Below are positions 42,887 through 43,642 of a DNA stretch of 50,565 bases, piece by piece. The DNA is from Candidatus Woesearchaeota archaeon. GTDB taxonomy: Archaea; Nanobdellota; Nanobdellia; SCGC-AAA011-G17; ARS1403. Within the stretch, counting starts at the first letter, position 1. Every line of letters starts with the position of its first letter. The position numbers and the translations under genes are program-made. The stretch is from assembly GCA_016188065.1 (NCBI GenBank), contig JACPIN010000022.1, forward strand, positions 1 to 50,565. Direction: 5' to 3'. Below the pieces are notes generated by a model that searched no databases, had not been told where the DNA came from, and saw nothing but the letters and a program-made list of their open reading frames with translations.

Positions 42887-43327
42887 CTATTTTTTGATTA
42901 AGGCTTTTATTCTTACAGAATTCAAAACTTTATCTAAAGCATTTGAAAACTTTATTGCCTGCTCTAGTGGAATCGTTATAGAATGCTCATGAATCCATCC
43001 ATTACCTTCTTTTTTCTTTTTTTGAATTAGCAAATATTTTCCATATTCATTCTCCAGTATATCGAACCATATTGTTTTATTATTGTAACTTATTTTTTCA
43101 AAATCAAAATGATGTATCCTATGATTTGGGTAATAGACTTTCGTGACTCCGAATTGCTTCATATAAATCTCATTTTCCAAGATTAATACTTGCAGATGCT
43201 TTTCAATTGCTTTTCTTGAAAATTTTGTATTTCTAACCAGTTCAGTCATTGTAAACCCTTTTGGATTATTTCTCAGAGTTTCTAGAACCTTTTCGTGAAT
43301 TATTTTTTCTTTTTTTACAGGATACAT
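42887..43327 (-). CDS. Winged-helix transcription regulator
   Basis: A 146-residue regulator with a winged-helix region at about residues 10-70 (MTELVRNTKFSRKAIEKHLQ as recognition part, then a wing ending at VTKVYYPN) and a C-terminal domain of unknown ligand. ATG 43327 is preferred over TTG 43345, because the TATA-like TAATATATAAAC (43350-43361) is about 28 bases away and predicts a start near 43330. It is divergent from the aberrant tRNA locus. Confidence 0.7.
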   Translation of the reverse strand: MYPVKKEKIIHEKVLETLRNNPKGFTMTELVRNTKFSRKAIEKHLQVLILENEIYMKQFGVTKVYYPNHRIHHFDFEKISYNNKTIWFDILENEYGKYLLIQKKKKEGNGWIHEHSITIPLEQAIKFSNALDKVLNSVRIKALIKK

Positions 43328-43444
43328 ATTATTATTAAGAACCAAAAGGTTTATATATTATTAGTTCTTTATATTGGTTATCAATAATGATGACTAACAA
43401 AATAGTTCACAAATCAAGAATAAATAACCGATAAATAAGAAATT

Positions 43445-43491
43445 AATGCTCAGAAAGCTGAGCATTGATAAGCTCAAAACATACCATGTTC
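43445..43491 (+). repeat. Partial copy of the neighbouring tRNA: D arm and variable arm only
   Basis: 43458-43491 repeats the D arm and variable arm of the tRNA at 43542-43642: TGAGC-8 bases-GCTCA followed by AACAT-ACC-ATGTT. Compared with the full copy it lacks exactly the 17-base anticodon arm, and the acceptor and T arms are absent too. It is preceded by a 9-base hairpin AATGCTCAG/CTGAGCATT (43445-43466) that competes for the same CTGAGC. It may be a decayed duplicate or a functional RNA fragment. Confidence 0.55.
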
Positions 43492-43541
43492 ATTACTAGA
43501 GTAAAACCCAGATTATATAAAACTTACGGTCGAGTTGCAAA

Positions 43542-43642
43542 GCCGACGCTGAGCATCGGTGAGCTCAACCGCCTGAAAAGCGGTGAACATACCATGTTCT
43601 GGGGGTTCGAAACGTTTGAACGCGGAGATCCCTCCATCGGCG
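43542..43642 (+). tRNA. Class II (Ser-like) tRNA with GAA anticodon and T-loop insertion
   Basis: Acceptor GCCGACG/CATCGGC (43542-43548/43635-43641, one C-A mismatch), discriminator G43642. D arm GAGC-ATCGGTGA-GCTC with A14, G18G19 and A21. Anticodon arm ACCGC-CTGAAAA-GCGGT (43568-43584), anticodon GAA at 43575-43577. The 16-base variable region forms GAACAT-ACC-ATGTTC. T stem GGGGG/CCCTC encloses TTCGA and AT separated by about 17 extra bases (43611-43627), a likely T-loop intron. TATA-like TTATATAA (43513-43520) lies 26 bases before the 5' end. The long variable arm and G73 point to serine identity, but GAA reads Phe codons; GGA would differ by one base. Position 8 is C instead of T. Pseudogene remains possible. 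Confidence 0.72.

Follow-up and report, generated by a model that had tools for sequence, protein, structure and literature searches.

The 50,565-nucleotide contig JACPIN010000022.1 of a Candidatus Woesearchaeota archaeon (assembly GCA_016188065.1; hereafter the window) carries a class II tRNA gene with serine-type identity and a non-serine anticodon, GAA, and its product is predicted to be charged with serine. Divergently upstream lies a putative antisense gene. Sequence comparison among relatives establishes its terminator and orientation and indicates that its complementarity to the tRNA is kept by selection. We assign a probability of roughly 60% to the reading that the two genes form a protein-free two-RNA locus, in which a missense seryl-tRNA is controlled by antisense RNA, probably in a toxin-antitoxin-like manner. 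A preliminary description of this DNA, which did not include the antisense RNA, had suggested serine delivery at Phe codons. With the antisense RNA, the picture shifts from constitutive delivery to a tRNA that would be held in check.

Structure and identity of the tRNA

The following features named in the preliminary description are all present in the sequence: a cloverleaf, the GAA anticodon, a 16-nt variable region, G73, a 17-nt T-loop insertion, C8, a C6-A67 mismatch and a TATA box (Table 1). The gene reads GCCGACG CT GAGC ATCGGTGA GCTC A ACCGC CTGAAAA GCGGT GAACATACCATGTTC T GGGGG TTCGAAACGTTTGAACGCGGAGAT CCCTC CATCGGC G. The insertion, previously thought to be an archaeal intron at 58/59 or 59/60, can now be placed at 59/60 as an exact bulge-helix-bulge (BHB) intron. 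Its T arm resolves into GGGGG TTCG AA^A CGTTTGAACG CGGA GA^T CCCTC, then CATCGGC G. The 4-bp helix TTCG/CGGA (43606-43609 and 43623-43626) is flanked by the 3-nt bulges AA^A (43610-43612) and GA^T (43627-43629), as is typical of archaeal BHB introns, and removal of the intron leaves the T-loop TTCGAAT. Because of the 17-nt insertion, the gene is missed by default ARAGORN and by Rfam RF00005 even at E<=10.

Table 1. Coordinates of the tRNA gene, its predicted antisense partner and flanking features in the window.
Feature	Position	Strand	Basis
Winged-helix (helix-turn-helix) and PurA-domain (PurA-like nucleic-acid-binding) protein	42887..43345	-	Flanking gene
Predicted antisense RNA, divergent from tRNA; predicted 5' end ~43491-43495, predicted 3' end in T-run	43430..43492	-	
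Terminator hairpin AATGCTCAG-CTTT-CTGAGCATT, then T-rich run 43424-43444	43445..43466	-	
Antisense segment pairing with tRNA D arm (43548-43568)	43457..43477	-	Repeat and duplex analysis
Antisense segment pairing with variable arm (43586-43599)	43478..43491	-	Repeat and duplex analysis
Palindromic TATA box TTATATAA, ~25 bp from both predicted starts	43513..43520	.	Sequence; family statistics
Class II serine-type tRNA gene, anticodon GAA, intron included	43542..43642	+	Sequence, homology, family alignment
Exon 1: acceptor 5' strand, D arm, anticodon arm, variable arm, T-stem 5' strand, TTCGAA	43542..43611	+	Sequence and BHB geometry
Anticodon GAA, loop CTGAAAA at 43573-43579	43575..43577	+	Sequence, family alignment
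Variable arm GAACAT-ACC-ATGTTC	43585..43599	+	Sequence, family alignment
17-nt intron at 59/60	43612..43628	+	BHB register common to family
Exon 2: T60, T-stem 3' strand, acceptor 3' strand, G73 at 43642	43629..43642	+	Sequence, family alignment

The tRNA-Ser identity elements G73, G1-C72 and G30-C40 are all present in the gene. G73 and G30-C40 are strong identity elements for seryl-tRNA synthetase, serine identity is independent of the anticodon, and in H. volcanii G73 acts as an antideterminant against leucyl-tRNA synthetase (PMC9976931). The variable arm has no unpaired base on its 5' side and one on its 3' side, a geometry identical to that of canonical tRNA-Ser CGA (L019). These elements bear out the earlier view of a serine-type tRNA, even though GAA stands in place of a serine anticodon (NGA or GCU). 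According to the preliminary description, a clean Phe tRNA score would have refuted this view; a tRNA-Phe has a class I body and A73, and the window gene is class II with G73. An ordinary class I tRNA-Phe GAA is encoded elsewhere in the source genome (G000:C15:14336-14409; 0.88 Mb, 26 contigs, 91% complete). As a result, the window gene is an additional one.

A family of serine-type tRNAs with foreign anticodons

By DNA similarity, promoter and gene together match a relative from a different family of the order (74% identity, E=4.5e-17), in which base changes within the acceptor stem and within the anticodon stem are compensatory; this argues that the window tRNA is not a chance fold. A covariance model of two sequences led to genomes G001, G005 and G022. 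The T-loop intron motif alone returned ten class II genes, all with G73 and none with a serine anticodon, which served as seeds for a model run over 371 genomes. After 40 further loci were fetched, the alignment held 74 genes. The genomes examined are metagenome-assembled, and one doubtful gene (L067 of G099, 45 bits) was omitted from the family.

Sixty-four of the 74 aligned genes, spread over about 35 genomes of a Nanoarchaeota/Woesearchaeota (DPANN) class of very small archaea of the symbiont type, combine G73 with a non-serine anticodon. In these same genomes Leu tRNAs carry A73, unlike the family. The 59/60 intron occurs in 63 of the 64 genes, and A35, which corresponds to Phe, Leu or Ile codons, in 60. 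The most frequent anticodons are GAA (11), CAG (11), TAT (10), TAA (9), CAA (8) and GAT (7), shares that are biased because the family model contains the anticodon loop; GTC, CTC, CCT, TAG, GAG, AAC and AAG occur once or twice each. Four class II genes emerged from a further, independent search by motif; all have odd anticodons, and three were already in the set. Several genomes hold more than one verified gene, with most in G314, where normal Phe and Ile tRNAs stand alongside the odd serine-type ones.

The fold is well conserved. Stem positions pair in 96.9% of pair cells across the alignment, with a covariation of 0.708 compared with 0.18 after shuffling. G1-C72 is present in 72/74 genes and G30-C40 in 68/74, while the flanking pairs 29-41 and 31-39 vary freely. 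Loss of the fold in relatives would, according to the preliminary description, have marked a pseudogene; the relatives retain it. Decay, which was also considered there, is unlikely for the family as a whole, and what stands of that proposal is the pair of weak marks in the window copy. Given C8 and C6-A67, this copy may be weaker or less active than its relatives.

The introns follow a common register, namely T-stem - TTCG/TTCA - 3-nt bulge - hairpin - CGGA/TGAA - 3-nt bulge - T-stem. A complete 4-bp central helix is found in this exact register in 60 of 70 family insertions and in none at shifts of 1-3. Pairing of intron and T-stem in the mirror-image register was rejected, since it has the wrong chirality and the correct register fits 60/70 introns. 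The strict 3-4-3 structure is shared with archaeal BHB introns at noncanonical tRNA positions, and the intron itself is ordinary. Regular Asp, Lys, Ala and Arg tRNAs of the archaeal class also contain a 59/60 intron of this kind, so the machinery to splice it is likely present. In the motif search that returned such tRNAs, the motif read backwards gave no matches.

Two further observations concern these introns. Ordinary class I tRNAs with BHB 59/60 introns (Arg CCT, Lys, Asp, Ala, Thr) were recorded at L082, L160, L174 and L248-L277, and some of this kind may be overlooked by standard searches. In a subgroup of the family (L087, L094, L114, L123, L133, L139 and similar), the intron also contains a mimic of two tRNA strands, the 3' strand of the variable arm and the 5' strand of the T-stem (TGTCAAT-ACGGG is one example), and the precursor could therefore fold alternatively with the variable arm.

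A viral home for the family was rejected, as the single viral-contig match of the T-loop motif sits in sequence without a recognisable tRNA. Bacterial matches of the motif were set aside on the same grounds.

The antisense partner

A repeat search detected a partial copy of the tRNA upstream of the window gene (43457-43491). Read from the minus strand, the predicted RNA would join the D arm to the variable arm in a duplex of -56.3 kcal/mol, in which the anticodon arm is skipped and looped out. In many relatives, the antisense is also complementary to the anticodon arm.

The arrangement is typical of the family. A significant copy lies within 200 bp upstream of 47/63 family genes, 44 of them inside -125..-35, compared with 2/51 ordinary tRNAs; the downstream flank contains one in 1/63. 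Copies extend from the D arm as far as the variable arm and only very rarely include the T arm. Family genes examined that lack a near copy have one in the same orientation further out, mostly at -185 to -285, or in one case downstream, and a few of these more distant matches are weak.

Differences between copy and gene are strongly skewed towards those that preserve RNA pairing. Across the 44 loci, 140 differences keep G.U pairing (G to A, T to C) versus 19 mirror changes (p=6e-24). Base-normalised rates agree, at 0.179 for G>A versus 0.031 for C>T and 0.133 for T>C versus 0.011 for A>G. A second set of 13 further loci, located by a wobble-aware search and counted with symmetric scoring, gave 43 versus 10 (p=5.6e-6). 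Since AT drift would raise G>A and C>T alike and cannot yield T>C, selection for antisense pairing explains the bias well. In addition, the minus strand outscores the plus strand for a hairpin with T-run at all 44 and all 13 loci.

The predicted pairing is strong and specific to each locus. Duplexes have a median energy of -59 kcal/mol (z -7.0), and average -64.6 kcal/mol for cognate versus -34.9 kcal/mol for non-cognate pairs. The cognate tRNA is the best partner in 40/44 cases, and the diagonal also dominates within genomes holding several pairs. With the best ordinary tRNA tested from the same genome, the window antisense reaches only -37.6 kcal/mol. These are properties expected of an antisense gene with selected cognate pairing, as in RNA-RNA toxin-antitoxin systems resembling type VIII. 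The upstream copy was also considered as a decayed tandem duplicate, as an attachment (att) site and as an alternative 5' half for trans-splicing; all three were rejected because of the strand-specific wobble bias, the minus-strand terminators and the constant spacing.

One palindromic TATA box could serve both strands. At near-type loci, the longest A/T run is centred at 0.52 of the interval between copy end and gene start (mean 48 bp), and 36/44 loci contain an A/T-only palindromic 6-mer there. Elsewhere, including in G314 and G218 (L232-L246), the antisense element lies ~185-285 bp upstream (~370-400 in L240) and must therefore use its own promoter. A TTTCGGT/CTTACGG-like element, perhaps an initiator, recurs after the TATA box at ~-25 to -8 of many family genes.

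Proposed function and alternatives

From these features we infer transcription, splicing, serylation and mistranslation, together with toxicity of the tRNA and an antitoxin role for its partner. The plus strand would yield an intron-containing tRNA, spliced to a normal-shaped seryl-tRNA. The anticodon, which is GAA in the window gene and mostly NAN across the family, would let this product read codons of hydrophobic residues and place serine at Phe, Leu or Ile codons. A short antisense RNA would come from the minus strand, where it is probably driven by the same TATA box, and would pair with the D and variable arms and often the anticodon arm. By trapping or misfolding the tRNA, it would block folding, splicing or charging; in its absence, damaging mistranslation would follow. 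A toxin-antitoxin-like pair is the simplest reading because a potentially harmful RNA is tied to a locus-specific antisense, and such pairs are several per genome, scattered and fast-changing. We hold a broader claim more tentatively, with the odds leaning slightly against it: that DPANN archaea possess a new all-RNA class of toxin-antitoxin system, whose toxin, a spliced seryl-tRNA, inserts serine at hydrophobic NUN codons proteome-wide and whose antitoxin is a divergent, locus-specific antisense invading the D, anticodon and variable arms.

Several points weigh against the toxin-antitoxin-like reading. The nev-tRNAs of nematodes mature fully and no misincorporation was detected, so a foreign anticodon need not cause mistranslation (PMC4300185). 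Toxicity is a prediction from sequence, and a mobile-element or plasmid context of the loci is not demonstrated. The window gene has C8 and the C6-A67 mismatch, and at a few loci the partner is weak (L126; L083, with the partner downstream). Anticodon shares carry the bias of the sampling model; the seeds found by motif alone are nonetheless non-serine in 10/10 cases.

Alternatively, the tRNA might be a useful missense suppressor under some condition, with the antisense setting its level and no toxin involved. This is unlikely, although it accommodates the cloverleaf and identity elements kept by selection, the multiple genes per genome and the retention of the same locus in two families of the order. 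Few substitutions are as disruptive as serine at NUN codons, and a trait tied to particular codons would not show the rapid change of anticodons and arms seen from one relative to the next. Less probable again is an RNA that takes no part in ribosomal decoding and acts instead as a regulator, a decoy for an anticodon nuclease or virus, or an amino-acid donor. The varying anticodons and the precedent of the nev-tRNAs fit such a role, but removal of the 59/60 intron gives a normal T-loop, the anticodon loop keeps its length of 7 nt and 60/64 genes retain A35.

It is very improbable that the genes are neutral leftovers of duplication and anticodon mutation, with decaying tandem duplicates upstream. 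The two tandem genes and further fragment in G005, and C8 and C6-A67 in the window copy, would suit this explanation; it is contradicted by strand-specific wobble-compatible changes in both locus sets and opposed by minus-strand terminators, the constant spacing and extent of the copies, and strong stem covariation. There is equally little to recommend the window gene alone as a tRNA-Ser(GGA) whose anticodon has mutated or been misread, or as a pseudogene: RF00005 searches, the source of the tRNA set for this 91% complete genome, found neither tRNA-Ser GGA nor GCT, but the orthologues that occupy this site have CAA or GAT, relatives of other families share the same GAA loop (L083, L108, L134), and the antisense partner is intact. 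The single GGA-to-GAA change proposed earlier as the origin is likewise unsupported, because the gene belongs to a family with many anticodons, among them CAA, TAA, CAG, GAT and TAT.

If the toxin-antitoxin-like reading is true, a tRNA can be a toxin, and cells keep code-breaking molecules under RNA-only control. Such a pair would represent an unreported type of control or addiction system, one that needs no protein, in archaea with little genetics; it would also explain many unannotated tRNA-like genes with foreign anticodons in such genomes, and provide natural, regulated missense tRNAs for genetic-code engineering.

Comparison with known systems

No description of such a tRNA/antisense system was found in the literature searched, which left most subscription papers out of reach. 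In type I and type VIII toxin-antitoxin systems, an antisense RNA with cognate specificity is encoded beside or opposite the toxin RNA. The present loci differ in that neither a toxic peptide nor an mRNA is involved, and the antisense would act on a structured, intron-containing tRNA. Bacterial allo-tRNAs (8/4, 9/3), reportedly described by Mukai et al. in 2017, are said to be serine-type tRNAs with unusual anticodons and were proposed as missense or nonsense suppressors. The family shares their serine type and unusual anticodons but is archaeal, with a BHB intron and an antisense partner. Its aligned members have 7/5 acceptor/T arms, in contrast to the 12-bp acceptor branch of allo-tRNAs (8+4 or 9+3).

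The nematode nev-tRNAs are class II, with a variable arm, leucine identity and foreign anticodons including UAU for Ile (PMC4300185). Like the family, they join one amino acid's identity to another's anticodon and are conserved in genomes. Unlike it, they are eukaryotic and of leucine identity, and no antisense partner or 59/60 intron is described for them. The nearest archaeal RNA toxin-antitoxin found, CreTA of haloarchaea, works differently. CreT acts by sequestering a rare tRNA, and the role of CreA is to direct Cascade to the promoter (PMC8501985). Both systems would pair a small RNA toxin with an RNA antitoxin and strike translation through tRNA. Here, however, the tRNA itself is the proposed toxin, and its partner is a direct antisense with long tRNA pairing rather than a short promoter match.

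Genomic neighbourhood and related loci

The winged-helix/PurA gene and small downstream genes are common to G000, G001, G022 and, in part, G005; the winged-helix/PurA gene is not conserved at other family loci. The protein was rejected as a partner of the module, as the association reflects the local synteny of four genomes only. No protein recurs beyond three genomes beside the other family loci examined, and the module therefore appears protein-free. The cassette type at this locus varies: G000 and G022 have one type (GAA, CAA), G001 has another (GAT) and G005 has both in tandem. At L066 (G005:C31; features 1207-1312, 1331-1384 and 1529-1630), two tandem odd tRNA genes (GAA, CAA) each have their own antisense element. 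A third tRNA-like fragment lies between them and may be an orphan antisense gene. The tRNA at L099 (G248:C2) carries leucine-type A73, the anticodon CAA and a 59/60 intron; upstream of it lies a strong antisense copy (-89 kcal/mol), and the arrangement may therefore reach beyond serine-type tRNAs.
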